A stretch of 34,660 bases of DNA from Gammaproteobacteria bacterium. GTDB taxonomy: Bacteria; Pseudomonadota; Gammaproteobacteria; JAJPIJ01. The notes under the pieces were generated by a model. The model had not been told where the DNA came from, did no database searches, and was given only the letters and a program-made list of their open reading frames with translations. The position numbers and the translations under genes are program-made. The stretch covers positions 1-34,660 of the forward strand of contig JAJVHZ010000039.1 of assembly GCA_022072255.1 (NCBI GenBank), in the 5' to 3' direction. Positions 6,280 through 23,903 of this stretch are shown one piece after another. The first letter of the stretch is position 1. Each line of letters begins with the position of its first letter.

Positions 6280-9200
6280 GTGACGCGCAAGCAGAAGGGC
6301 GACGCCATCCGCGTGGTGGGTGCCCGCCAGAACAATCTCAGGAACCTCACGCTCGACGTTCCGCTGAACGAGCTGGTGGTCGTCACCGGCGTGTCCGGCT
6401 CGGGCAAGTCCTCACTGGTGTTCGACACGGTGTACGCCGAGGGCCAGCGGCGTTACGTCGAGACCTTCTCGCCGTACGCGCGGCAGTTCCTCGATCGCAT
6501 GGATCGGCCGCAGGTCGATCGTATCGACGGCATACCGCCGGCCATCGCCATCGACCAGACCAACCCGGTGCGCACCTCGCGTTCCACGGTCGGCACGATG
6601 ACCGAGCTCAACGATCACCTGAAGCTGCTGTTCGCGCGCGCCGCGCAACTGTTCTGCAGCCGCTGCGCGCGGCCGGTGCGGCGCGACACGCCGCAGAGCA
6701 TCTGCGCGGACCTGCAGGCGCGCGCCGCCGCCGCGGGCGACCCGCGCCTGCTCATCACCTTCCTCGTCGAAGTGCCGGGGAATTTCAGCGACGCGGAGGT
6801 GCTGAAGCTGCTCGCCGCGCAGGGTTACGCGCGCATACACGCCCGTGGCGCGGGGGCGATCGAGGTGGTGCAGGACCGGCTGCGCGCCGGCAATGCGGAA
6901 CGGGTGCGCGTCGTCGAGGCGCTGGAGGCGGCGCTGAAGGTCGGTCGCGGCCGCGTCAACGTGCACGCACTCGCGCCGCCGGCACCCGAGCGCACGGACG
7001 GGGCCGAGGTCGCGCAGACCTGGCGCTATTCGTCCGATCTGCACTGTCCGGACTGCGATCTGCACTACCGCGAACCCACGCCGGGTCTGTTCTCGTTCAA
7101 CTCCCCGGTCGGCGCGTGCGAGACCTGCCGCGGCTTCGGGCGGGTGATCGGCGTGGACTACGGGCTGGTGATCCCGGACGCGTCCAGGACGCTGCGCGGC
7201 GGCGCCATAAGGCCCTGGCAGACGCAGAGCTACAGCGAGTCGCAGCGCGACCTGGAGACGATCGCGAAGAAGCGCGGCATCCCCCTGGATGCGCCGTGGC
7301 GCGAGCTCACCGAGGCCGAGCGCGCCTGGGTGCTGGACGGCGAGCCGGACTTCGTGAGCTGGGAGAAGTCCTGGCCGGGCAGCTGGTACGGCGTGCGGCG
7401 CTTCTTCGCGTGGCTCGAGACCAAGGCCTACAAGATGCACATCCGGGTGCTGCTCTCGAAATACCGCGCCTATACCGACTGCCCCGCGTGCAACGGCGCG
7501 CGGCTGAAGCCCGAGGCGCTGCTGTTTCGCCTCGGCACGACCGGGGCGAGTGCAGGCGGGGGCGCGAAGGAGTTGCTCCGGCCGCCCGGCGTGCAGTGGA
7601 CCGAGGCGCAGCTGCGTGGCCTGCCGGGCCTTTGCGTGCACGATGTCATGCTGCTGCCCATCGATCGGGTGCGGGCCTGCATGGACGCCCTGGAGCTGCC
7701 GGCGCCGCTGGACGAGGCCACCGATCTGCTGCTCGCGGAGATCCGGGCGCGGCTGAATTACCTGGTGCAGGTCGGGCTGGGCTATCTCACGCTCGATCGG
7801 CAGTCGCGCACGCTCTCCGGCGGCGAGGTACAGCGCATCAACCTCACCACCGCGCTCGGAACCTCGCTGGTCAACACCCTGTTCGTGCTCGACGAGCCGT
7901 CCATCGGCCTGCACCCGCGCGACATGGGGCGGATCATCGAGGTCATGCAGCGGCTGCGCGACGCCGGCAACTCGCTGCTGGTGGTCGAGCACGACCCGCA
8001 GGTGATGTTCGCTGCCGACCGCCTGCTCGACATCGGCCCCGGTCCCGGCGAGCGCGGCGGCGAGGTGGTGTTCTTCGGCACGCCGGAGCAGCTCGCCTCC
8101 GCGCCGGGTTCGCTGACCGCGGACTACCTGCATGGCCGGCGCCGCATCGGCAGCGAGCATCTGGCCTGGCCGGTGACCGCCGAGACGCCGAGGCTGGAAC
8201 TGCTTGGCGCGCGCGCCCACAACCTCAAGGACATCGACGTCAGCATCCCGCTGCAGCGGCTGGTGTGCGTGACCGGCGTCTCCGGCAGCGGCAAATCCAC
8301 GCTCGTGCAGGACGTACTTTATCCGGCGCTGCTGAAGCGGCGCGGCAAGCCGACGGAGGCCCCGGGCGTCCATCGCGACGTGCGCGGCGATGCGCAGATC
8401 GCCGAAGTGGTGATGGTGGACCAGTCGCCCATCGGCCGCACCACGCGTTCGAATCCGGCGAGTTATGTCGGCGCCTTCGACGCCATCCGGGCGCTGTTCG
8501 CCGCCACGCCGCTCGCCAAGGTGCGCGGCTATACCGCCGGCACCTTCAGCTTCAACACCGGCAACGGCCGCTGCCCGACCTGCAGCGGCAACGGCTTCGA
8601 GCACGTGGAGATGCAATTCCTCTCCGACGTCTACCTGCGTTGCCCGGACTGCGACGGCCGGCGCTTCCGCGAGGAGGTGCTCGAGGTGCGGCACGGCGGC
8701 CGCGGCCGCGCGGGCCGCAATATTGCCGAGGTGCTGGGCATGACGGTCAGCGAGGCCGCCGCCTATTTCGCCGGCGAGCCGGCGGTGCTGCAGGCGCTGG
8801 CACCGCTCGTCGACGTCGGCCTGGACTACCTGAAGCTCGGCCAGCCGGTGCCCACGCTCTCCGGCGGCGAGGCGCAGCGGCTGAAGCTGGCCGGCTTCCT
8901 CGCGGCCGCGGGCAGGGGCCGTGGTCCGGCGCGCAAGGCGGCGGCGCGCGCGCGGGAGGAGCCGGGCGCCCTGTACCTCTTCGACGAACCCACCACCGGC
9001 CTGCATTTCGAGGACATCGCCAGGCTGCTGCACGCGCTGCGCAAGCTCATCTCCGCCGGCCACTCGGTGGTGGTCATCGAGCACAACCTCGAGGTCATCG
9101 GCGCCAGCGACTGGGTGATCGATCTCGGACCGGAGGGCGGCGAGGGCGGGGGCGAGGTCGTTGCCGTGGGCGCGCCCGATCAGTTGCGGCACTGCACCGC

Positions 9201-11973
9201 ATCGCACACCGGCGCGGCGCTCGGGGAATACCAGCGCAGCCTGCAGCGCCTGGCCGCGCGCGCGGCAACCGGTCACGTGCAGGCCGCGGCCCGCGGCCGT
9301 TCGGGCGGCAGCAGGAAGGCCGACAACGCCATCCGCATCCACCACGCCCGCGAGCACAACCTGAAGAACATCGACGTGCGCATCCCGCGCGGGGAGTTCA
9401 CGGTGATCACCGGGGTCTCCGGCAGCGGCAAGAGCACGCTCGCCTTCGACATCGTGTTCGCCGAGGGCCAGCGCCGCTATCTCGAGTCGCTGAACGCCTA
9501 TGCGCGCCAGTTCGTGCAACCGGCCTCGCGCCCGGACGTCGACGCCGTGCTCGGCATACCGCCGACGGTGGCGATCGAGCAGCGCACCAGCCGAGGCGGG
9601 CGCAAGAGCACGGTGGGCACGCTCACCGAGATCCAGCATTTCCTGCGTCTGTTGTACGTGAAGCTCGGCGTGCAGCACTGCCCGGACTGCGCGGTTGCCA
9701 TCGAGCCGCAGAGCGAGGAGATGATTGCCGCCCGGCTGCTGCGCGACTATCGCGGCAGGTCCGTCACGCTGCTCGCGCCCCTCATCGTCGCCCGCAAGGG
9801 CCTGTACACCGAGCTGGCGAAGTGGGCCTCCGCACGCGGCTACGAGCACCTGCGCGTGGACGGCCAGTTGCTGCCCACGGTGCGCTGGCCGCGGCTGGAT
9901 CGCTACAAGGAGCACACGATCGAACTGCCGGTGGCGGAGATCTCCGTGGCGCCGCGCGCCGAGCGCGAGCTGCGCGCGGCGCTGAGGACGGCGCTGGAAC
10001 ACGGCAAGGGCGTGGTGCACGTCGTGAAAAGGGGCCGGAGTCATGTTCCCCGTGGGAAACTGACTCCGGCCCCTTTTTCGGTCTTCTCGACGCGGCGCGC
10101 CTGCCCGTCGTGCGGCCGGAGCTTCGGCGAGCTGGACCCGCGGCTGTTCTCGTACAACTCCAAGCACGGCTGGTGCGAGACCTGCTACGGCACCGGCGAG
10201 CTGCTGCACGGCTTCGCCGAGGATCAGACCGGGGAGGAGGTCTGGTGGACCGACTACTACGAGGGCTGGCATGGCGAGACCGCCAGGCAGTGCCCGGACT
10301 GCCACGGCCGGCGCCTCAACCCGGTCGCGTGCGCGGTGCGCTTCCGCGATCTGTCGATCGCCGATGTCTCCGCGCAGGCCGTGGCCGAGGTGCGGCGGTT
10401 CTTCGACGCTCTGAAGCTGCGCGGGCGCGAGGCGGAGATCGCGCGCGACATCCTGGCCGAGCTGCGCGCGCGACTGGGCTTCCTCGAGGAGGTGGGGCTG
10501 GGCTACCTCGCCCTCGATCGCGGCGCGCCGACGCTCTCCGGCGGCGAGGCGCAGCGCATACGCCTGGCCGCGCAGCTCGGCTCCAACCTGCGCGGCGTGT
10601 GCTACATCCTCGACGAGCCGACGATCGGGCTGCATACGCGCGACAACCGTCTGCTGCTCGATACGCTGACGCGGCTCAAGGACAAGGGCAACACGCTGCT
10701 GGTGGTCGAGCACGACGAGGACACCATCCGCTGCGCCACGCACGTCATCGACATCGGTCCGGGCGCCGGCACCCGCGGCGGTCGCATCATTGCCGAGGGC
10801 ACGGCGCAGGACCTGCAACGCAATCCCGAGTCGCTGACCGGACGCTATCTCGCCGTGCCGCTCGCCCACCCGCTGCTCGAGCATCGCGGCACGAGTGCGG
10901 CGACCCCGGCGCTGACCGTGCGCGGCGCCAGCCTGCACAACCTGCGCGAGATCGACGTGCGCCTGCCGCTGCAGCGCCTGGTGTGCGTGACCGGCGTCTC
11001 CGGCAGCGGCAAGAGCACGCTCGCACGCGAGGTGCTGCGCGAGAATCTGCAGCGTCTCGTCCATGCCCGGCGCGGCAAGGCGCCGCTGCCTTACGGGTGC
11101 GACGGCATCGAAGGCCACGAGCAGATCGCGCGCGTGCTGGAGGTGGATCAGGCGCCGATCGGCAAGACCCCCCGTTCCTGCCCGGCCACCTATGTGGGCT
11201 TCTGGGACGACATCCGCCGCATCTACGCGCAGGCGACCGAGTCGCGCATGCGCGGCTGGACCGCGAGCCGGTTCTCCTTCAACACCGCCGGCGGGCGCTG
11301 TCCCGCCTGCGAGGGGCAGGGCGTGACCACCATCGAGATGAGCTTCCTGCCGCAGGTGAAGGTGACCTGCGAGTCGTGCAGGGGCGCGCGCTTCAATCCC
11401 GAGACCCTGGCGGTGCGCTACAAGGACAGGACCATCGGCGAACTGCTCGCGATGAACGTCGACGACGCGCTCGAGTTCTTCGGCGCGCACGTGAAGATCC
11501 AGCACGCGCTGCGACTGCTGCAGGACGTCGGCCTGGGTTATCTCACGCTCGGCCAGCAGAGCCAGACACTCTCCGGCGGCGAGGCGCAGCGCATCAAGCT
11601 GGTCACCGAGCTGGCCAAGGTCCGTCTCCCGCTGCCCGCGCCGCGCGGCCGCGCGGCGGCGGCCAGGAACACGCTCTACATCCTCGACGAGCCGACCGTC
11701 GGCCTGCACATGGCCGATGTCGAGAAACTCATCCGCGTGCTGCATCGCCTCGTCGATGCCGGCAACACGGTGGTCGTCATCGAGCACAATCTCGACGTAA
11801 TCGCCGATGCCGACTGGATCGTCGATCTCGGCCCGGAGGGCGGTGAGGCCGGTGGCCGCATCGTCGCCGAGGGCCCGCCGTCCACGATGGCGCGCAAGGC
11901 GAAGACCTCGCACACCGGCCGCGCACTGGCCGAGTTCCTGAGCCGCCATGCGGCGGCCCGCGCCGCGAGTTGA
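6280..11973 (+). CDS. Tandem ('dimeric form') UvrA excinuclease ABC subunit A paralogue
   Basis: A 1897-residue protein made of two complete UvrA halves (about 1-985 and 1020-1890), twice the usual UvrA length of about 940. Four Walker A motifs GVSGSGKS/T start at residues 37, 666, 1045 and 1572. There are four LSGGE(V/A)QR signatures and four Walker B motifs of the DEPxxGLH type. CxxC zinc modules such as CPDC...CETC, CPTC...CPDC, CPSC...CETC and CPAC...CESC are present. UvrA recognises damaged DNA as a dimer in nucleotide excision repair and loads UvrB; this fused class is a paralogue whose exact role is unclear. The first half has a full-length insertion region, while in the second half the segment between CETCYGTG and CPDCHGRRL is shortened. 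A 51-bp palindrome at 10027-10077 adds 17 residues (1250-1266) in frame. The start is a GTG at 6280 without a clear ribosome-binding site; a GTG at 6100 is possible but adds a non-conserved Arg-rich tail. Confidence 0.92.
10027..10077. repeat. 51-bp REP-like palindrome inside the tandem UvrA gene
   Basis: Two perfect 17-bp inverted arms (10027-10043 and 10061-10077, left arm AAAAGGGGCCGGAGTCA) flank a 17-bp centre. The centre itself contains a TTCCC/GGGAA stem (46-50 and 54-58 of the 10000 block) around a CGT triloop. The element is exactly 51 bp, divisible by three, has no stop in the gene frame, and encodes residues 1250-1266. The A-tract, GGGG, then GAGTC pattern resembles the short palindromic repeats mobilised by REP-associated Y1 transposases in many Proteobacteria; that link is from memory of the motif class. 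No second copy is visible in this window. Confidence 0.8.
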
Positions 11974-12047: not shown

Positions 12048-13667
12048 ATGGCCAATCGGAAACTGATCTTCGGATCCGCGGCCCGCGAAAAGGTTCTGCG
12101 CGGCGCCTCGGCGCTGGCCGACGCCGTGCGCGTCACGCTGGGGCCGCGATCCAAGTCGGTCCTGATCGAGCGCGCCTGGGGACGTCCGCTCGTCTGCAAC
12201 GACGGCGTCACCATCGCCAAGGAGATGAGTCTGGAGGATCGCGAGGAGAATCTCGGCGCGCAGATGATGCGCGAGGCCGCCGAACGCACCGGGGATGCGG
12301 TCGGCGACGGCACGAGCACCTCGACCGTTCTCGCCCACGCCATCTTCGCCGATGGGGTGCGCAACGTGACCGCCGGGGCGAGCGCGATCGACATCAAGCG
12401 CGGCCTGGATGCCGGCCTGAAGGTCGCGGTGGAGGCGCTGAAGGCACTGTCGCGCCCGGTCACCACCCGCCTCGAGCGCGCGCAGGTTGCCGCCATCTCC
12501 GCGCACAACGACCAGTCCATCGGCGAGATCGTGGCCGACGCCGTCGAGAAGGTCGGCAAGGAGGGCATCATCACCGTGGAGGAGTCCAAGACCACCGAGA
12601 CGCATCTCGAGGTGGTCGAGGGCATGCAGTTTGACCGCGGCTACATCTCCCCGTATTTCGTCACCGAGCCGGAGAAGATGGAGGTGCTGCTGCGCGATCC
12701 CTACATACTGCTGAGCGAGAAGCGCATCGGCCACCTGCAGGAGCTGCTGCCGCTGCTGGAGGAGGTCGCCAAGAGCGGGCGCGCGCTGCTGGTCATCGCC
12801 GAGGACGTCGAGGGCGAGGCGCTGGCCACGCTCGTGGTCAATCGCATACGCGGCATCTTCTCCTGCGCGGCCGTGAAGGCGCCGGGCTTTGGCGATCGGC
12901 GCAAGGCCATGCTCCAGGACATCGCCGTGCTCACCGGCGCCACCGTGGTGTCCGAGGAGATCGGGCTGAAGCTCGAAAATGTGACGCTCAACGATCTCGG
13001 CCGTGCCGAGCGCGTCGTCATCAGCAAGGAGAACACCACCATCATCGGCGGCGGCGGCGACAAGACGATGATCACGGCGCGCTGCAACGAGATCCGCGCC
13101 CAGATCAAGGACACCAAATCCGACTACGATCGCGAGAAGCTCGAGGAGCGGCTCGCCAAGCTGGCTGGCGGCGTTGCGGTCGTGCGCGTCGGTGCACCGT
13201 CGGAGTCCGAGATGAAGGCCCGCAAGGATGCCTTCGACGATGCCATCAGCGCCACCAAGGCCGCGAGCGAGGAAGGCATCGTCCCCGGCGGCGGGCTGGC
13301 GCTGTTGCGCGCGATGCCGGCGCTGGAGGCGGCGGCCGCGAGCCACGACGGCGACGAGCGCACCGGGCTGCACATCCTGCACAATGCGCTGGAGGCGCCG
13401 GCCCGGCAGATCGCGCACAACTCCGGGGTCGACGGCGGCGTGGTGGTGAACGCGATGCGCCAGGGGCAGGGCAACTACGGTTTCGACGCCGCGCGCGGCG
13501 TGTACGGGGATCTGATCGAGGCGGGCATCATCGATCCCACCAAGGTCGTGCGCGTCGCGCTGGAGAACGCGGTGTCGGTTGCGAGCGTGCTGCTGCTCAC
13601 GGAGGCGACGATGACCGAGATCCCGGAGAAGAAGGAGCAGTCGCGCGCGGCGCCGGAGGCGATGTAG
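12048..13667 (+). CDS. groEL: GroEL-family chaperonin (60 kDa), stand-alone paralogue
   Basis: A 539-residue group I chaperonin, aligning with E. coli GroEL without gaps through most of its length. Key ATPase positions are kept: Asp52 in [18 protein letters not shown] at 86-94 with Asp87, and Asp398 in [18 protein letters not shown] follows. The apical domain retains DRGYISPYF and [16 protein letters not shown]. GroEL assembles into tetradecamers in the cytoplasm and folds proteins with GroES. Three differences stand out: no groES gene lies before it, the C-terminus ends in [12 protein letters not shown] rather than the usual GGM repeats, and the ATP-loop reads TST instead of TTT. A strong ribosome-binding site (GAGGAGGAGG) precedes the ATG at 12048. 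The gene starts 74 bp after the tandem UvrA stop and may be co-transcribed with it. It is likely a secondary chaperonin beside a canonical groESL elsewhere. Confidence 0.95.
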
Positions 13668-13727: not shown

Positions 13728-14183
13728 TCAGCGGCGGACCTGCCGCCGCTTCTCGCGCTGCTGCCCGTGGCGGATCAGGCCGGCGAGGTTGTTCATCGAT
13801 TCGGCGACGAGTTCGATGAGGTCGTCGAGCGCCAGTATGCCCTGGAGCGCTCCGGAGGAATCGGTCACCGGCAGGCGGCGCACGCCCCTCTCGGACATGC
13901 GCTGCACCGTGTACCAGAGGTCGTCCTCGGTGGTGGCCAGGACGAGGTCGCCGGACATGACGTCCTTGACGCTGATGGCATCGAGGTCCACGTCCGCGGC
14001 GAAGGCGGCGACCACCAGATCGCGATCGGTCACCACGCCGATCGGCCTGGTGACATTGCCGTCCTTGGACACCACGACGACGGCGCCCACGTGCTGCTCG
14101 CGCATGATGCCCGCGGCCTCGCGCAGCGGGGCATCGCCATCGACCACGATCACTTCGCGATTACAGACTTCACCGACGCGCAT
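13728..14183 (-). CDS. Two-CBS-domain protein
   Basis: A 151-residue cytoplasmic protein made almost wholly of a pair of CBS domains (about 5-65 and 72-130), forming one Bateman module. Typical strand-helix motifs are AAGIMREQHVGAVVVV, PIGVVTDRDLV, VKDVMSGDLV, QRMSERGVRRLPVTD and LQGILALDDLI. Such modules bind adenosine nucleotides such as AMP or ATP, or S-adenosylmethionine, and act as energy sensors. Small stand-alone CBS proteins are frequent in stress gene clusters. The short C-terminal tail is very basic (QQREKRRQVRR). The ATG at 14183 has a good ribosome-binding site (GGGAGGG, about 5 bases upstream). It lies 119 bp downstream of the MlaF-like gene on the same strand and converges on groEL. 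Confidence 0.9.
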   Translation of the reverse strand: MRVGEVCNREVIVVDGDAPLREAAGIMREQHVGAVVVVSKDGNVTRPIGVVTDRDLVVAAFAADVDLDAISVKDVMSGDLVLATTEDDLWYTVQRMSERGVRRLPVTDSSGALQGILALDDLIELVAESMNNLAGLIRHGQQREKRRQVRR

Positions 14184-14302
14184 GATTGCCCTCCCGGTTC
14201 AGGGGAATGGAAAGGAGAATTGCAGTCTTTCACCGACCGGCCGTGGGGGCGGTGATACAGATCAAGTCGCCGGCACGCCGGGGCGTTGCCGGGGGGCGCT
14301 CC

Positions 14303-15130
14303 TCAGGAGGCGCGCCGCAACTGGCGCTGATGCAGCTCCGGCATGTGCTCGAAATAGGGCCGGATGATGGTGGAATCCGATGCCTCGAAACCGGCAAAGT
14401 CGCCGTCGAAGTGCACGTGGCCCTGGTGCAGCATGACGATGCGTGGCCGCAGCCGGGTCAGCAGGTCCTTGTCGTGGGTGATGATGACGGTGGTGCGCGC
14501 CACGCCGCGCTGGTCGCTCGTGGAGTGCGTGGTGGCGATGAGGTCATGGATCTGCGCGGAACTCACCGGGTCGAGTCCCGTGGTCGGCTCGTCGTAGAAG
14601 ACGACCGCGGGGTCTATGGCGATCGCGCGCGCCACGGCCAGGCGCTTGGCCATGCCGCCGGAGAGCGTCTCGTGATCGCGCCCGAGGAAATCATCGCCGC
14701 CCGGCAGTCCGACAGATTTCAGCGCCGCGCGGGCGATCGGCCGGATCTCGCTGTCGCGCAGCCGCCCGATCTCGCGCAGCCACAGGGCGATGTTGTCGTA
14801 CACCGTGCCCGTGAACAGCGCATTGCGCTGGAACACCACGCCCCAGTGGGCGTGTATGCGGTCGCGGTCGTCCTGGGCAAGGGCGTGGATGTCTCGCAGC
14901 GGCATGTCGGCGAGATCGTGATCGGCGACCAGCACCCGGCCCCGGTCCGGGTTGAGCAGTCCGAGGATGTGGTTGAGCAGCACCGTCTTGCCGCAGCCGG
15001 AACCGCCGACCAGGGCGACCACCTGGCCGCGGCGGATGTCGATGCTGATGCCTTCCAGGACGGGGTGGCCGAAAAACGCCTTGTGAAGGTCCTCGACGGT
15101 GATCTCCAGGCCTTCCGGTGTGGATCCCAT
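14303..15130 (-). CDS. ABC transporter ATP-binding protein, MlaF/Ttg2A-like, orphan
   Basis: A 275-residue ABC ATPase. The Walker A motif GGSGCGKT is at about residues 42-49, a Q-loop region reads GVVFQRNALFTGTVYDNIA, the signature is LSGGMAKRLAVARAI, Walker B is VVFYDEPTTGLDP, and an H-loop reads VIITHD. The Q-loop and signature wording are those of MlaF, the ATPase of the Mla phospholipid transport system that maintains outer-membrane asymmetry. No MlaE permease, MlaD (MCE) or MlaC gene is next to it, so it must act with partners encoded elsewhere or has been co-opted. The C-terminal end after the H-loop is of MlaF type without an extra domain. Start at ATG 15130; a longer Arg-rich N-terminus (to 15319) is open but not conserved-looking. 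Its promoter must lie in the 476-bp divergent region shared with the Lon-like gene. Confidence 0.87.
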   Translation of the reverse strand: MGSTPEGLEITVEDLHKAFFGHPVLEGISIDIRRGQVVALVGGSGCGKTVLLNHILGLLNPDRGRVLVADHDLADMPLRDIHALAQDDRDRIHAHWGVVFQRNALFTGTVYDNIALWLREIGRLRDSEIRPIARAALKSVGLPGGDDFLGRDHETLSGGMAKRLAVARAIAIDPAVVFYDEPTTGLDPVSSAQIHDLIATTHSTSDQRGVARTTVIITHDKDLLTRLRPRIVMLHQGHVHFDGDFAGFEASDSTIIRPYFEHMPELHQRQLRRAS

Positions 15131-15606
15131 GCTAGTTCCGAAGCAGCGGCAGAGTCGCGCGAATCGCCGGAACGATTGCACGGATCGGGCCAAGGCTGCA
15201 AGCGTCGTCCGACGGTCGCGTTGCGGTACTCGCGCCGGAAGGGCGCCTGCGGCCGCATGAGTCCGACGCCTGGCCGGAACTGAGCGGTAACGGCGCGCGT
15301 TCGGGCCAGATCGCGCCACGGCGCGATCGCTGCGGAACCCGATATGCCAGTCGACCTGCAGACCGGCGTGAGGTTCCTACGCCGCGGATTGCTCGGGGCG
15401 GATAGGCGGCAACCGTGCAGACCGGCACCGTGCGTCGCTGTTCGGCAACAGACCGATGACATCACGCCGGCGCGGCCGGGGGTGAATCGAGCGCGCCCGC
15501 GCGGGTGGATCCCGATCGCGCCTTCGGTACACTTGATGTCGCGAAGGCCCGGGTGTATGAGCTGGCCCGTATCCCGTCCATGCGGAAGATCAACAGAAAG
15601 GACATC
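15131..15606. promoter_or_regulatory. 476-bp divergent control region between the ABC ATPase and LonB-like genes
   Basis: This is the longest non-coding stretch in the window. It must hold promoters for the minus-strand ABC and CBS genes and for the plus-strand protease, USP-like and possibly quinone reductase genes. I see one clear palindrome (15309-15328), a possible -10 (TACACT near 15528) for the protease gene without a convincing -35, and a ribosome-binding site AGAAAGGA (15595-15602) before the GTG at 15607. I see no coding potential that looks conserved. Confidence 0.5.
15309..15328. promoter_or_regulatory. Perfect 8-bp-arm palindrome, candidate operator
   Basis: GATCGCGC and GCGCGATC arms are separated by the tetranucleotide CACG. 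It sits 179 bp upstream of the ABC gene start and 279 bp upstream of the Lon-like start. There is no T-tract, so a transcription-factor site is more likely than a terminator. In GC-rich DNA an 8-bp inverted repeat can arise by chance. Confidence 0.3.
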
Positions 15607-18078
15607 GTGTCGACCCCACCCGCCCTTGCCCCCGAGGCGCTGTATCGACCCTGCAAGCTCGACGGCCTGACCTTCGTCACCACCGAGGATCTCGCCGATC
15701 TGGAGGCGGTCGTCGGCCAGGCCCGCGCCCGCGAGGCGGTGGAGCTGGCCGTGGGTGTGCGCAGGCGCGGCTACAACCTCTACGTGCTGGGTCCGCCGGG
15801 TCTCGGCAAGCGGACCTTCGTGAGCCGGGCGATCGCCGCCACCGCCAGCGACGAGCCTGCCCCCGAGGATTGGTGCTACGTCAACAACTTCAAGCAGCCG
15901 CATCGGCCGTGTGCCCTGCGCCTGCCACCCGGCTGCGGCAATCGTCTGCGGCTGGAGATGCAGAAATACATCGAGGAGCTGCGCGCCTCGATCCCGGCCA
16001 TCTTCGAGAGCGAGGAGTACCGCACGCGCGTGGAGCAGATCGAAAGCCAGGTCGGCGAGCGCGAGGGCCGGATATTCGAAGAGGTGGGCACCGAGGCCGG
16101 CAGCCAGGGCCTGGCGCTCATCCGCACGCCGGGCGGGTTCTCATTCGCCCCCATGCGCAACGGCGAGGTGTTGGGCGCGGAGGAGTTCTCCAAGCTCGGC
16201 GACGAGGAGCGGCATGCCATGGAAGCCAGGGTGCTGGCGCTGCAGGAGCGTCTGCAGGACGCCATCAGGCAGGTGCACCTGCTGCACAAGGAGAAGCGCG
16301 AGCGGATCCGCGAGCTCAATCGCGAGATGACCAGCCTCGCGGTCGGCGCGGTCACCGACGAGTTGCGGAAGAGACATGCCGGGCTGCCGCAGGTGAACGC
16401 CTATCTCGACGAGGTCGAGGCCGACGTGCTGGAGAACATCGACGATTTCCGGCGCGGCACCGAGGGCGAGTCGGAGCCGGGCTTCGTGGGCCTGCGCGCC
16501 TCCGAGCCGCCGTCGTTCCGGCGCTACACGGTCAACGTCATCGTCGGCAACGGCGAGAAGGCGACCGGCGCCCCGATCGTCTTCGAGGACTTTCCGACCT
16601 ACCAGAATCTGCTGGGCCGCATCGAGCACGTCTCGCGCCTGGGGACGCTGGTCACCGACTTCGCGCTCATCAAGCCCGGGGCGCTGCATCGCGCCAACGG
16701 CGGCTACCTGCTCATCGATGCGCAGAAGTTGCTGACGCAGCCTTTCGCCTGGGCGGGACTGAAGCGCACGTTGGCGAGCGGACAGATCCGCATCGAGTCC
16801 CTCGGCGAGGTGTACAGTCTCATCAGCACCGTGGCGCTCGAGCCGGAGCCGATCCCGCTCAGTCTGAAGGTCGTCATCTTCGGCGAGCGGCTGCTGTACT
16901 ACCTGCTGCTCGCCTACGACCCGGAGTTCGGCGAGCTGTTCAAGGTGGCGGCCGATTTCGAGGACGAGCTGGAGCGCGACGCCGGCCAGGAGGCGTTGTA
17001 CGCGCAGCTCGTCGCCACCGTGGTTCGTCACGAGCGGCTGCTGCGGCTGGATCGCGGCGCGGTGGCGCGCGTGATCGAGCAGGCCTCGCGCTGGGTCGGC
17101 GACAGCGAGCGGCTCTCCACGAGCCTGGAGGACCTCGGCAACCTGCTGCGCGAGTCCGATTACTGCGCGCGCAGGGCGGGCGCGCAGACGGTCGCCGCCG
17201 AGCACGTGACGCAGGCCATCGAGGGCCAGCGCCGCCGCAGCGGGCGGCTGCGCGAGCGCATACAGAGCGCCGTCCTGCGCGGCGAGCTGATGATCGACAC
17301 TGCCGGCGAGCGCATCGGCGTGGTCAACGGCCTGTCGGTGGCCCTGGTCGGCGATCACGCCTTCGCCCATCCGACGCGCATCACCGCCACCACGCGGCTC
17401 GGTGACGGCGAGATCATCGACATCCAGCGCGAGGTGGAGCTCGGCGGCCCCATACACTCCAAGGGGGTGCTCATCCTCGCCTCGTACCTGGCCTCGCGTT
17501 ACAGCGGGGATCGTCCGCACGCGCTGTCCGCCAGCCTGTCCTTCGAACAGACCTACGCCGAGGTCGAGGGCGACAGCGCCTCGGTGGCCGAGCTCGCCGC
17601 ACTGCTGTCCTCGCTGGCAGCGGTGCCGATCCGCCAGTCGCTGGCGGTGACCGGCTCGGTCAATCAATACGGCGAGGTCCAGCCGATCGGCGGCGTCAAC
17701 GAGAAGATCGAGGGCTACTTCGACATCTGCCAGGCGCGCGGTCTGAGCGGGCAGCAGGGCGTGATCATCCCGGCGACGAACGTCAGGCACCTGATGCTGC
17801 GGGCCGACGTGGTGCAGGCAGCGCGCGAGGGAAGGTTTCACATCTACCCGATCGGCCAGGTCGACGAGGCGATGGCGCTGCTGACGGGCGTGACGGCTGG
17901 CGAGATGGACGGCAGCGGCGTGTTCCCGAAGGACAGCATCAACGCCCGCGTCGCCGCGCGGCTGACGGAGCTCTCGCTCATGCGGCAGGCCTACGCCAAC
18001 ATGCCGGTGCGGGTGAAGACGGTGCGCGGGCGCAAGAAGGCGCCGGCGGCCCCGCCCAGGGAAAAGCCGGGGAGATAG
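15607..18078 (+). CDS. LonB-like ATP-dependent protease (AAA+ and Lon C-terminal peptidase)
   Basis: An 823-residue protein. Its order is an N-terminal AAA+ segment with Walker A GPPGLGKRT (62-70), a long charged coiled-coil insertion (about 150-260), the rest of the AAA+ domain, and a C-terminal Lon peptidase domain (about 560-770). The catalytic dyad is intact: Ser657 in GDSAS and Lys700 in GGVNEKIEG, 43 residues apart as in E. coli Lon. It lacks the Lon substrate-binding N-domain and belongs to the group annotated as Lon-related or AAA_32 proteases. Degradation of misfolded or regulatory proteins in the cytoplasm is expected. I chose GTG 15607, which has AGAAAGGA just upstream and yields the family-like APEALYRPC start; ATG 15580 would add nine residues. 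The next gene begins 4 bp after the stop. Confidence 0.9.
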   Translation: MSTPPALAPEALYRPCKLDGLTFVTTEDLADLEAVVGQARAREAVELAVGVRRRGYNLYVLGPPGLGKRTFVSRAIAATASDEPAPEDWCYVNNFKQPHRPCALRLPPGCGNRLRLEMQKYIEELRASIPAIFESEEYRTRVEQIESQVGEREGRIFEEVGTEAGSQGLALIRTPGGFSFAPMRNGEVLGAEEFSKLGDEERHAMEARVLALQERLQDAIRQVHLLHKEKRERIRELNREMTSLAVGAVTDELRKRHAGLPQVNAYLDEVEADVLENIDDFRRGTEGESEPGFVGLRASEPPSFRRYTVNVIVGNGEKATGAPIVFEDFPTYQNLLGRIEHVSRLGTLVTDFALIKPGALHRANGGYLLIDAQKLLTQPFAWAGLKRTLASGQIRIESLGEVYSLISTVALEPEPIPLSLKVVIFGERLLYYLLLAYDPEFGELFKVAADFEDELERDAGQEALYAQLVATVVRHERLLRLDRGAVARVIEQASRWVGDSERLSTSLEDLGNLLRESDYCARRAGAQTVAAEHVTQAIEGQRRRSGRLRERIQSAVLRGELMIDTAGERIGVVNGLSVALVGDHAFAHPTRITATTRLGDGEIIDIQREVELGGPIHSKGVLILASYLASRYSGDRPHALSASLSFEQTYAEVEGDSASVAELAALLSSLAAVPIRQSLAVTGSVNQYGEVQPIGGVNEKIEGYFDICQARGLSGQQGVIIPATNVRHLMLRADVVQAAREGRFHIYPIGQVDEAMALLTGVTAGEMDGSGVFPKDSINARVAARLTELSLMRQAYANMPVRVKTVRGRKKAPAAPPREKPGR

Positions 18079-20892: not shown

Positions 20893-21981
20893 TCAGGATC
20901 TCGAGGTGCTGATCGCGTCCGTGAGGCCGGCAGCGAGCCCCGCGTAGAAGGCGCCCAGGTTCTGCACACTGTCGGCCAGGGCATCGTTGACGAGCGCCTG
21001 GACGTTCGCACCCGATGGCCAGTGACGAAGCATGGCCTCCGCCGCGAGCGCACAAACGACGGCGATGCCGAGGGGGTCATTCGCCTCCGTGACCGGTGCA
21101 TCGGTCAGCCGCGCCAGGCCGCGCTCCCACTGCCGCATCGGCTCGCAAGAGGGCGCGTCCTCGAGGACGCGGCCGAGCTCCTCGGAGTCCAGCGCCGCGC
21201 TCAACCCGACAGTCGCAGTGAGGTCGGCGACGGCGCTCGCGGAGCCCTGCGGGTCGTCCTGGCTCGTGTAGCGGCCCGGGTCGAAGGCGCATTCCGCCTG
21301 CGTGGCGAGGCAGGCCGCGATCTCGCTCGCCAGCTTTTCCCTCGACATGACGAAGCTCAGGTAGCAGTCGTCGAGCTGATGCTGCATCGTCTTCTCCGAT
21401 TCGCTGCTCAGACGGGCGAACAGCCGCGAGTCGAGCCCGTCCATCAGCGCGACGGCCCACTTCGTTCCCAGGTCCAGGGCTATGGCCCGGCAGCGGGACG
21501 CGGTATCGGTCAGGGGCTCCGGTATGCTTCGAGCGGGTGTTGCCGCGGGCGGAGCGGCGGGAGTTTCCGGGTCCGAACGCACCTGCGTCAGGCGGGCAGC
21601 GACCGGACGGGGCTTGGCACGTCCCTCGGCGATCAGGGCGCGCAGCAGCCCCTCGATGACGCTCGGGCCCGGCTCGAGCAGCCTCGCGGTGAAAAAATTG
21701 CCGTCCGCGCCGATGACCGCCGCCCGGATGGGGAGTATGCGCCAGATCTCGCCAGTGCGATGCGAGATGTGTATGACTATCTTCCGGCCGGACTTGAGAC
21801 GGTCGGGAGACAGCACCGCCGGTCCGGCCAGCATCAGGCGCATCTCGGTGGCACAGAGCTGCGTGATCCAGCAGGCCGCGCCATAGGTGCAGAACCCGGT
21901 CACCAGCGCGCCGAGCCAGACGGCGTAGCGCTGTCCGCCTGTATCCTCGACCCGGGGCGTGCTCTGTTCCGACTGTTGCAT
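20893..21981 (-). CDS. Uncharacterised protein, weakly DUF1631-like, next to kinase
   Basis: A 362-residue protein. A hydrophobic stretch near residues 21-40 may be a membrane segment. A beta-rich region follows at about 45-115 (GRKIVIHISHRTGEIWRILP, then ARLLEPGPSVIEGLLRALI), which could be PilZ-like. After a Pro/Ala-rich linker (about 125-160), a helical C-terminal region begins with LDSRLFARLSSESEKTMQHQLDDCYLSF, which recalls the N-terminal part of the DUF1631 family of Pseudomonas and relatives. It sits 84 bp downstream of the Ser/Thr kinase gene on the same strand, so it could be the kinase's co-transcribed partner or substrate. The ATG at 21981 has no obvious ribosome-binding site. Both domain suggestions are tentative. 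Confidence 0.6.
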   Translation of the reverse strand: MQQSEQSTPRVEDTGGQRYAVWLGALVTGFCTYGAACWITQLCATEMRLMLAGPAVLSPDRLKSGRKIVIHISHRTGEIWRILPIRAAVIGADGNFFTARLLEPGPSVIEGLLRALIAEGRAKPRPVAARLTQVRSDPETPAAPPAATPARSIPEPLTDTASRCRAIALDLGTKWAVALMDGLDSRLFARLSSESEKTMQHQLDDCYLSFVMSREKLASEIAACLATQAECAFDPGRYTSQDDPQGSASAVADLTATVGLSAALDSEELGRVLEDAPSCEPMRQWERGLARLTDAPVTEANDPLGIAVVCALAAEAMLRHWPSGANVQALVNDALADSVQNLGAFYAGLAAGLTDAISTSRS

Positions 21982-22065: not shown

Positions 22066-23352
22066 CTATCCAGGTATCGAAAGGCGTTCGATCGTGGCCG
22101 TCAGGCGCACGATGACCGTGCGCAGGAAGGCGCGCAGGAACTTGATCTGGCACTCCGAGGAGGTCTTCTTCATGACGGTGGGGTTGAACTGCATCAGGGT
22201 GATGCGCGTCTTCGCGACGATCGACGCGGCGCGCTTGGTGCGCATCAGGTAACCCATCTCACCGATGCAGTCGCCCTGGTGCAGGGCGCTCAGCTCCTTG
22301 TCTCCCTTGCGGACCGCGGCCTCGCCGTCGACGATGACGTAGAAGGATTCGTCGAGTTCGCCCTCGACGATGATCTGCTTGCCCGCTTCGGCGCTGATCC
22401 ATATTCCAACGTTGACAAGCTCGCGCAATTCCGCGTCCGTGAACTCCTGGAAGAACGGCAGCCTTCTCACGCAGGCGAACCGCTCGTCGATGTCGATCTG
22501 CCTGGCCGCCTTCATCAGCAGCCGCTCGAAGGCGTTGCTGAGGTCGGTGGCCAGATCGAGCGCGGAGGCGTAGCGGTCGGAAGGGTTCTTCGCGAGCGCC
22601 CTGGCGACGATCGCCTCGAGCAGCTCGTCGAGTTCCGGCCGATGCTGCCGTATCGGTGGCGGGTCCTCGTTCATGATCTTCTGGATGAGGAGCGGGAAGT
22701 TGTCCGCGGCGAACGGACTCCGACCGGTCAGCAATTCGTACATGATCACGCCCAGCGAGAACACGTCGGTCCGGGCGGTAAGGGTCTGATCGCTGATCTG
22801 CTCCGGGGACATGTAGCGCGGCGAACCGGCCACGCCCAGCACCATCGTCTGATCGGAATCGGTGCGGTTGAGGTAGGCGATGCCGAAGTCGCCGATCTTC
22901 ACCTCGAAATCCCCGGAGACCAGGATATTCCCGGGCTTGATGTCGCGATGGATGATCCCCTGCCGGTGCGCGTAGTCCAGCGCCTTGGCGCATTTGAAGA
23001 TGACCTCGATCACCCGGCCGAGGGGCAGCAGACCCTCGGGCCTGCACGCGGGCTTCAGCGTCGCGCCGCCCTCGATGTATTCCATGACGATGTAGCAATT
23101 GTCGCCGTCCACGCCCGCGTCGAAGATGCGGACGATGTTCGGATGGGTGAGCAGCCCCGCCGTACGGGCCTCGTTGAAGAACATCTTGCGGAACCGCGCA
23201 CCGGACTCCTCTTCCCTGAGCTGCTCGGCGTGCGCGATCTTGATGGCCACGGGCTGGTCGGCATAGGGATCGTGGCCAAGGTAGACGGTGCCCATGCCGC
23301 CGCGGCTGATCTCCCTGCTGATTATGTACTTGCCTACCTTGCCGAATGCCAT
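22066..23352 (-). CDS. Hanks-type Ser/Thr protein kinase fused to a cyclic-nucleotide-binding domain
   Basis: A 428-residue soluble protein. The kinase domain covers about residues 9-275: glycine loop SRGGMGTVYLG (16-26), ATP lysine Lys38 in VAIK, helix-C Glu61, catalytic HRDIKPGN (135-142, Asp137), DFG 155-157, and activation segment with SPRYMSPEQ. The C-terminal domain (about 295-400) is a cNMP-binding beta-roll with ESFYVIVDGEAAV, and the phosphate-binding cassette GEMGYLMRTKRAASIV with the expected Glu and Arg. There is no membrane segment, unlike PASTA kinases. The architecture suggests kinase activity controlled by cAMP, cGMP or a related nucleotide, the domain order being reversed from eukaryotic PKG. 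An ATG at 23352 is preceded by GGAGA about 9 bases upstream. The 84-bp gap to the next gene suggests an operon. Confidence 0.93.
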   Translation of the reverse strand: MAFGKVGKYIISREISRGGMGTVYLGHDPYADQPVAIKIAHAEQLREEESGARFRKMFFNEARTAGLLTHPNIVRIFDAGVDGDNCYIVMEYIEGGATLKPACRPEGLLPLGRVIEVIFKCAKALDYAHRQGIIHRDIKPGNILVSGDFEVKIGDFGIAYLNRTDSDQTMVLGVAGSPRYMSPEQISDQTLTARTDVFSLGVIMYELLTGRSPFAADNFPLLIQKIMNEDPPPIRQHRPELDELLEAIVARALAKNPSDRYASALDLATDLSNAFERLLMKAARQIDIDERFACVRRLPFFQEFTDAELRELVNVGIWISAEAGKQIIVEGELDESFYVIVDGEAAVRKGDKELSALHQGDCIGEMGYLMRTKRAASIVAKTRITLMQFNPTVMKKTSSECQIKFLRAFLRTVIVRLTATIERLSIPG

Positions 23353-23561: not shown

Positions 23562-23903
23562 TCAGCCGGCCGGCGCCGGCAACGGGTTCGCCCGACGCCA
23601 TGCGGCGGCGAGGCGTGCGTACAGCTGCGGCGCGCCCACGAGGAGGTCCTGCAGGTCCGCATAGCCGCGACTCACGGCCTGCTGCATGAGCCACGCGGCC
23701 TGGGCGCGGATGTCGCGCTCCATGAAGCCGCGTAGTTCTCCCGCCGCGGCATGCGCGTCCGTCGACGGCACCTCACCGCCGGCGATGACGATCAGATGAG
23801 CGGCGGACGGGCGAACGCGCACGGCGCTGATCTGCAGCGCGCGCATCGCCGCCCCTACGCCAGGCGTGCGCGCTGAGGCCGGGTACGCGTCTTGACTGTT
23901 CAT
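23562..23903 (-). CDS. Small hypothetical protein
   Basis: A 113-residue, Ala-rich soluble protein with no signal peptide, Cys motif or recognised domain. Predicted structure is a short beta-strand pair (SAVRVRPSAAHLIVIAGG) followed by a long helical C-terminal half with several Trp, Tyr and Arg residues. The ATG at 23903 has a clear ribosome-binding site (GGAGAG, about 6 bases upstream), the best argument that it is expressed. It lies 209 bp upstream of the kinase gene on the same strand and could belong to the same transcript. The 250 bp before it, up to the DUF2784 gene, hold nothing recognisable. Confidence 0.5.
   Translation of the reverse strand: MNSQDAYPASARTPGVGAAMRALQISAVRVRPSAAHLIVIAGGEVPSTDAHAAAGELRGFMERDIRAQAAWLMQQAVSRGYADLQDLLVGAPQLYARLAAAWRRANPLPAPAG

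Follow-up and report, generated by a model that had tools for sequence, protein, structure and literature searches.

Gene and domain organization at the locus

The window (the whole stretch of 34,660 nucleotides analyzed here) carries a gene for a Ser/Thr protein kinase with a C-terminal cyclic-nucleotide-binding (CNB) domain (Table 1). A sequence-only reading of this DNA had placed the gene at positions 22066-23352, and we found this call to be right (minus strand, 428 aa); a simple codon model backed it with a score of 216.9. When we compared the translated protein with Pfam, Pkinase matched residues 10-262 (E 7.1e-50, 170.3 bits at a cut-off of 31.7) and cNMP_binding matched residues 320-394 (E 3.1e-12, 46.7 bits at a cut-off of 27.5). 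Thus, the domain order is indeed the reverse of that in PKG, as had been proposed. The peak 19-residue hydropathy was 1.2 and the protein therefore has no evident membrane segment.

A copy with 94% identity and the same neighbours is present in a sister species (L006). Comparison of the two copies yielded dN/dS ratios of 0.14 for the whole gene, 0.13 for the kinase part and 0.17 for the CNB part, and it can be seen that the window gene is under purifying selection. Sixty-one relatives (42-94% identity) aligned with the window protein over its whole length. Because of these full-length relatives and the syntenic sister copy with its dN/dS of 0.14, the kinase-then-CNB order is far beyond chance. 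Upstream of the kinase gene, a small open reading frame (23562-23903) had no Pfam match and its counterpart was not called in L006; this frame is probably spurious.

Table 1. Positions of the kinase gene, its predicted parts and its downstream neighbour in the window
Feature	Position	Strand	Basis
Ser/Thr protein kinase with C-terminal CNB domain	22066..23352	-	ORF, 428 aa, ATG start; Pfam
PknB-type kinase domain, residues 10-262	22567..23325	-	PF00069, 170.3 bits; PknB as best solved match
Activation segment from DFG to SPE, residues 155-184, including Thr169	22801..22890	-	80-protein alignment; model
CNB domain (N-terminal helices, beta-roll, long C-helix), residues 288-428	22069..22491	-	PF00027; AlphaFold2; VIA-align
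Predicted phosphate-binding cassette GEMGYLMRTKRAAS, residues 364-377 (E365, R374)	22222..22263	-	sequence, alignment
Co-directional downstream neighbour of the kinase, 362 aa, candidate partner	20893..21981	-	84-nt gap

Several other genes of the window were also inspected. On the plus strand, positions 6280-11973 encode a double-length UvrA-like protein of 1897 aa with ABC_tran, UvrA interaction and DNA-binding domains, directly followed by a Cpn60/TCP1 chaperonin-family protein of 539 aa (12048-13667). An antisense frame of 1845 aa (6412-11949), for which Pfam gave no match, resembles a high-GC shadow. A CBS-pair protein (13728-15130, minus strand) lies beside an ABC ATPase, and a Lon-like protease with LonB AAA and LonC helical domains is encoded at 15553-18078 on the plus strand.

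Distribution of the kinase-CNB family

A pattern scan with one genome per species yielded 38 loci. By title, these were mostly gammaproteobacterial or proteobacterial MAGs with four Thiotrichaceae, and they also included one Rhodocyclaceae MAG, the named strain Methylohalomonas lacus and four entries titled Klebsiella pneumoniae. Stretches taken from related genomes brought the sample to 80 full-length proteins in 52 loci (window included), and after 40 further loci it rose to 121 distinct full-length proteins. In a sample of the class, 151 of 369 genomes gave a match with E 1e-60 or better; in many, this match covered the kinase domain only. At least 71 of these 369 genomes had a full-length match, picked by hand as spanning the model almost from its first to its last position; this count rests on match length and not on the cassette. 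In a sample of the phylum, 5 of 398 genomes (our own included) matched at E 1e-95 or better and all five belong to this same class. Taken together, the kinase-CNB family is common in part of one bacterial class.

Two distant full-length matches outside the 121 proteins (L057, L062) have lost the cassette and kept the kinase half, which indicates that some relatives manage without a ligand. The four MAGs titled Klebsiella pneumoniae are the sources of L007, L013, L040 and L043; since the kinases of L007, L013 and L040 branch among uncultured gammaproteobacteria, these titles are probably wrong.

Kinase half

The sequence-only reading had described an intact Hanks kinase, and Lys38, Asp137 and DFG (155-157) were located exactly at the positions named, within a domain that scored above the Pfam cut-off. 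Our alignment indicated that the Gly-loop, K38, E61, HRD137, N142, DFG155 and E184 of the SPE motif are all present in the window protein, and K38, E61, H135, R136, D137, N142, D155, F156, E184 and D196 are kept in all 121 full-length family proteins. As the third letter of the DFG motif, 77 of these proteins have Ser and 44 have Gly; the window copy has Gly. A degenerate kinase is ruled out by the intact catalytic motifs, and DFS in place of DFG is a trait of the family. In the activation segment, the position of Thr169 is occupied by Thr in 71 of 80 full-length proteins.

The best solved sequence match of this half was Mycobacterium tuberculosis PknB (182.6 bits, residues 9-274). A Foldseek search with the full-length model pointed in the same direction: the best 24 matches were all PknB or PknA, and M. 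tuberculosis PknB (5u94) was matched at E 1.6e-24 with 38% identity over 271 alignment columns. These matches speak rather against an AGC-type kinase domain like that of PKG. The NCBIfam model PknB_PASTA_kin (NF033483) covered residues 7-282 only and scored 294 bits, whereas 450 bits are required; Pfam gave no PASTA match in the window protein. From its motifs and nearest relatives, we infer that the window protein is a catalytically competent PknB-type Ser/Thr kinase.

Cyclic-nucleotide-binding half

An intact-looking cyclic-nucleotide cassette had also been claimed for this protein, and both diagnostic residues were recovered within the cassette sequence (Table 1), the Glu as E365 and the Arg as R374. 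Together with the beta2-beta3 glycine G343, these residues give the window CNB the canonical cassette features in the alignment. The cassette deviates once, with Ile363 at a position where 76 of 80 proteins carry Phe. G343, G364 and E365 are present in all 121 family proteins and R374 is present in 118 of them, the three exceptions being Lys, Ser and His. By eye on the alignment, G343 corresponds to PKA Gly169, a glycine that in canonical CNBs is reported to be conserved together with the cassette arginine (PMC2246266). With E365 invariant and R374 nearly so, the natural reading is that cyclic-nucleotide binding continues in the family and that the window CNB would still bind such a ligand.

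At the position beside the cassette arginine (375), 81 of the 121 proteins have Thr, 26 have Ser and 4 have Ala. The family consensus is RTAT; the window cassette reads RAAS, and the window and L006 proteins are among the four with Ala375. We take an RT or RA motif as a hint at the ligand only, because cAMP-responsive CNBs with RT exist, HCN being an example. Table 1 of Kannan et al. (2007; PMC2246266) gives RTAT/RT as PKG-like and RAAT/RA as PKA-like consensus motifs.

The Foldseek search with the full-length model gave kinases only among the best 50 matches, and for this reason the CNB was modelled and searched alone. AlphaFold2 predicted the isolated CNB (33 family members) with a pLDDT of 92.6 and a pTM of 0.85. 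In VIA-align, this model superposed on GlxR with cAMP (Z 18.1, rmsd 2.3, 138 aligned residues) and on CNB-B of PKG I (Z 16.6, rmsd 2.1, 122 aligned residues), and among the best 50 matches ligand-bound CNBs were found at Z-scores from 18.1 to 15.4. The solved relatives include cGMP-bound CNBs and the cUMP-bound PycTIR. When the CNB profile was used, the best solved sequence matches were PKG and PKA regulatory chains, for which the scores of multi-CNB chains are sums. The C-helix of the model is long (residues 399-425). The full-length prediction (62 family members) reached a mean pLDDT of 87.3 and a pTM of 0.66; in this model, the activation loop (164-173) is of low confidence and the linker around residues 281-290 is of moderate confidence (pLDDT 65). 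With these values for the linker and for the whole model, the interdomain arrangement is not readable.

Cyclic-nucleotide machinery of the genome

The sequence-only reading had suggested a genome search for adenylate or guanylate cyclases. This search returned five class III cyclase hits (PF00211) and one class I adenylate cyclase N-domain (E 7.1e-69). Three of the five class III hits (L001-L003) keep Lys and Asp, which we take to be adenylate-type residues, and L005 looks divergent. The genome also gave 23 CNB hits, four of which belong to the present kinase family. In 39 of 56 related genomes (our own included) PF00211 was matched. A full-length kinase-CNB match was found in at least 15 of the 56, counting our own genome and those of L057 and L062, and all of these genomes had PF00211 (hypergeometric probability 0.0015, which ignores genome size and kinship).

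Paralogues and history of the window copy

Four full-length paralogues of the family are encoded in the genome: a pair on contig 6 (L074), a fourth copy on contig 16 (L075) and the window copy on contig 31. One of these paralogues stands at 59% identity to the window protein. The pair represents the common locus, at which two family kinases lie about 2-3.6 kb apart with pgi/CBS genes between them on the opposite strand. Of the 52 loci, 30 have pgi next to a family kinase and 22 have a CBS-domain gene next to one; in L013 and in the window, members of the same CBS cluster lie further off. In a loose BLAST clustering, the CBS protein encoded at 13728-15130 groups with the CBS gene of the kinase-pgi locus.

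In the tree, the window copy and that of L006 join the second pgi-locus kinase of the same genus (support 100/95), and we therefore regard the window copy as a duplicate of this kinase. The duplicate was found in one genus only among the genomes examined. Its stem branch is longer than that of the pgi-locus paralogue (0.86 vs. 0.42), and its dN/dS between the sister species is higher (0.14 vs. 0.09). Thus, the window copy is somewhat relaxed, but still constrained.

The wider neighbourhood of the pgi locus varies by lineage and contains complex I-type membrane subunits, SCO/PCuAC and Psd genes, or likely phosphonate-synthesis genes. Other copies of the family adjoin riboflavin-synthesis/nusB/pgpA genes, a Mur ligase and a flavoprotein, a T2SSE-type ATPase, or a LysM-transglycosylase. 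A single operon partner for the whole family was considered and rejected, since the pgi/CBS genes lie on the opposite strand and the neighbourhood depends on the lineage. We read the recurrent pgi locus as shared ancestry and not as proof of a pathway. As a separate observation, genes for a PEP mutase, a TPP enzyme and a nucleotidyltransferase adjoin the first of the two pgi-locus kinases in L014 (590-4168) and equivalents in 17 loci, in most cases together with an aminotransferase gene; this cluster likely serves phosphonate synthesis. Elsewhere in our genome (G000, contig 51, 2400-21887), five Hanks-kinase matches without a CNB match were found within about 20 kb.

Linkage to DUF1631 proteins

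The fourth copy (L075) lies 70 nt downstream of the gene for a DUF1631-GGDEF-EAL protein. In ten genomes, a co-directional gene for a DUF1631 protein was found directly upstream of a family kinase with a gap of -8 to 121 nt (L075, L077, L140, L150-L154, L157, L158), and all ten proteins are PF07793 hits. L075 and L077 had been taken as paralogue loci, and L140 and L158 because hits of a previous search led to them; among the other 38 of the 40 added loci, which were chosen by match rank, the linkage was seen in six. The number of DUF1631 genes per linked genome ranges from one to about seven; in G069 and G200, the gene adjoining the kinase was the sole one found.

Four linked proteins were scanned whole by Pfam (L075, L140, L150, L152) and GGDEF and EAL matches were obtained for all four. 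PilZ was matched in one of these (L140), and it was also above the cut-off in L115, the G002 protein of L158. GGDEF and EAL motif patterns were found in none of the ten linked DUF1631 proteins. In two of them, which were read through, these domains look degenerate; L153 keeps DDFG.

The gene that follows the window kinase (20893-21981) adjoins the kinase in L006 too. It lies on the opposite side of the kinase from the partner in the linked loci. Its product shares 26% identity (E 2.8e-28) with a protein of the same genome (L117) that scores 42.3 bits for DUF1631 at a cut-off of 33.7, and it gave weak matches (E 5e-5 to 7e-4, one genome) to three linked proteins. For this product, Pfam gave no PilZ match and, with E values up to 1 admitted, none to DUF1631 either. 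These similarities identify the product as an apparent distant relative of the N-termini of DUF1631 proteins. Since RxxxR does not occur in its first 120 residues, c-di-GMP binding by this product is doubtful. As a lead only, we name the DUF1631-like neighbour as the foremost candidate for a partner or substrate of the window kinase.

Discussion

We consider it reasonably probable that the window protein is a soluble PknB-type kinase whose activity is switched by a cyclic mononucleotide bound to the single C-terminal CNB, with cAMP as the likelier ligand. Ligand binding would shift the connecting helices between CNB and kinase and in this way switch kinase activity, and autophosphorylation of the activation loop would then lock the active state. 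The direction of control is a guess, and we would favour activation by release of inhibition. A single bacterial polypeptide would thus do a PKG-like job with the opposite domain order. The proposal of the sequence-only reading, direct second-messenger control of protein phosphorylation in a bacterium, is supported in part.

Among the alternatives, a ligand other than cAMP (cGMP, cUMP/cCMP or a cyclic dinucleotide) is possible, but we regard it as doubtful. Such a ligand would fit the family consensus, which is PKG-like and not the PKA-like RAAT, and the cGMP and cUMP found in solved relatives; in addition, Bd1971 is activated by cAMP and cGMP alike (PMC6717892). However, the window copy itself departs from this consensus with an Ala375 that only four of 121 proteins share, and the cyclase repertoire of the genome, with three of five class III hits of the presumed adenylate type plus the class I N-domain, argues for cAMP. 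It is rather unlikely that the CNB binds its ligand but sets dimerization, location or partner choice, and that control of the kinase is left, as in PknB, to autophosphorylation of the activation loop alone. HRD motif and activation loop are arranged in the kinase half as is usual for PknB-type kinases, and the CNB combines a long C-helix with good superposition on CRP-type proteins, which are dimers held by such a helix; CRP and Bd1971 are described as dimerizing through the C-helix (PMC6717892). In Bd1971, however, the CNB governs the activity of its own catalytic part (PMC6717892). This precedent speaks against the dimerization reading. In PKA and PKG, too, it is catalytic activity that the CNB governs.

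The sequence history of the window copy bears on a further explanation, according to which this copy is a drifting duplicate and the job is still done by the pgi-locus paralogue. The longer stem branch, the restriction to a single genus among the genomes examined and the higher dN/dS would agree with drift, and the protein departs from strong family consensus at R63 (H), I363 (F), P391 (S/A) and K396 (Q). Nevertheless, this explanation is very improbable: all catalytic and cassette residues are intact in an open frame, dN/dS lies well under 1 for each domain, and the sister species retains the gene together with its neighbour.

Cyclic-nucleotide control of Ser/Thr protein phosphorylation is textbook knowledge for eukaryotes. 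Like PKG, the window protein combines a kinase and a CNB in one chain; Plasmodium PKG chains are the best solved matches of the CNB profile and the family shares the RTAT cassette of PKG, from which the window copy differs (RAAS). Unlike PKG, in which tandem or multiple CNBs precede the kinase, the window protein carries a single CNB at its C-terminus and its kinase half is PknB-like. Because of this closeness to PknB, and with a single CNB, we do not favour a rearranged PKG, and the family looks like an independent design of PKG-type logic. With PknB and other bacterial Hanks-type kinases the protein shares the kinase fold and motifs (38% identity to 5u94). PknB itself has a membrane segment and extracellular PASTA domains, whereas the window protein carries a CNB and gave no PASTA match. 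A CNB wired to an enzyme instead of to DNA binding is also found in Bd1971 (cNMP-EAL) and mycobacterial Pat (cNMP-acetyltransferase), to which the window CNB is related by a CNB-profile score of 54.8 bits (Bd1971) and a weak NCBIfam match of 31.7 bits (Pat). The output enzyme differs, being a Ser/Thr kinase here, and in Bd1971 the CNB is N-terminal (PMC6717892).

Bacterial kinases with a CNB have been mentioned in print before. Row 23 of Table 1 of Kannan et al. (2007; PMC2246266) lists an 'Other_bacterial' family of bacterial CNBs joined to various domains including 'kinases', but this row names neither a kinase type nor a function. The existence of Planctomycetota kinases with a CNB is implied in PMC11032199. 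The main text of PMC2877116 contains none of the terms 'cNMP', 'cyclic nucleotide' and 'cAMP', and section 9 of PMC12189002 names messenger-controlled bacterial kinases, with no cNMP-controlled Hanks kinase among them. Among the open-access titles and abstract beginnings listed, we found neither functional work on a CNB-bearing bacterial kinase nor a demonstration of cyclic-nucleotide control of a bacterial Hanks kinase.

The kinases of this conserved family, often present in several copies per genome, have the residues that both halves need; through them, a connection of cAMP with the bacterial phosphoproteome, and perhaps with c-di-GMP signalling, can be tested directly. For the latter, we put forward a tentative and on balance unlikely scenario: one branch of the cAMP-gated kinase family may act on a DUF1631-GGDEF-EAL protein with lost catalytic motifs, so that the signal would run from cAMP via phosphorylation to a c-di-GMP receptor-like protein, and the window locus might be a slimmed version that has only a relative of the N-terminal part of this partner. 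If true, this would establish a phosphorylation bridge between two messengers, cAMP and c-di-GMP.
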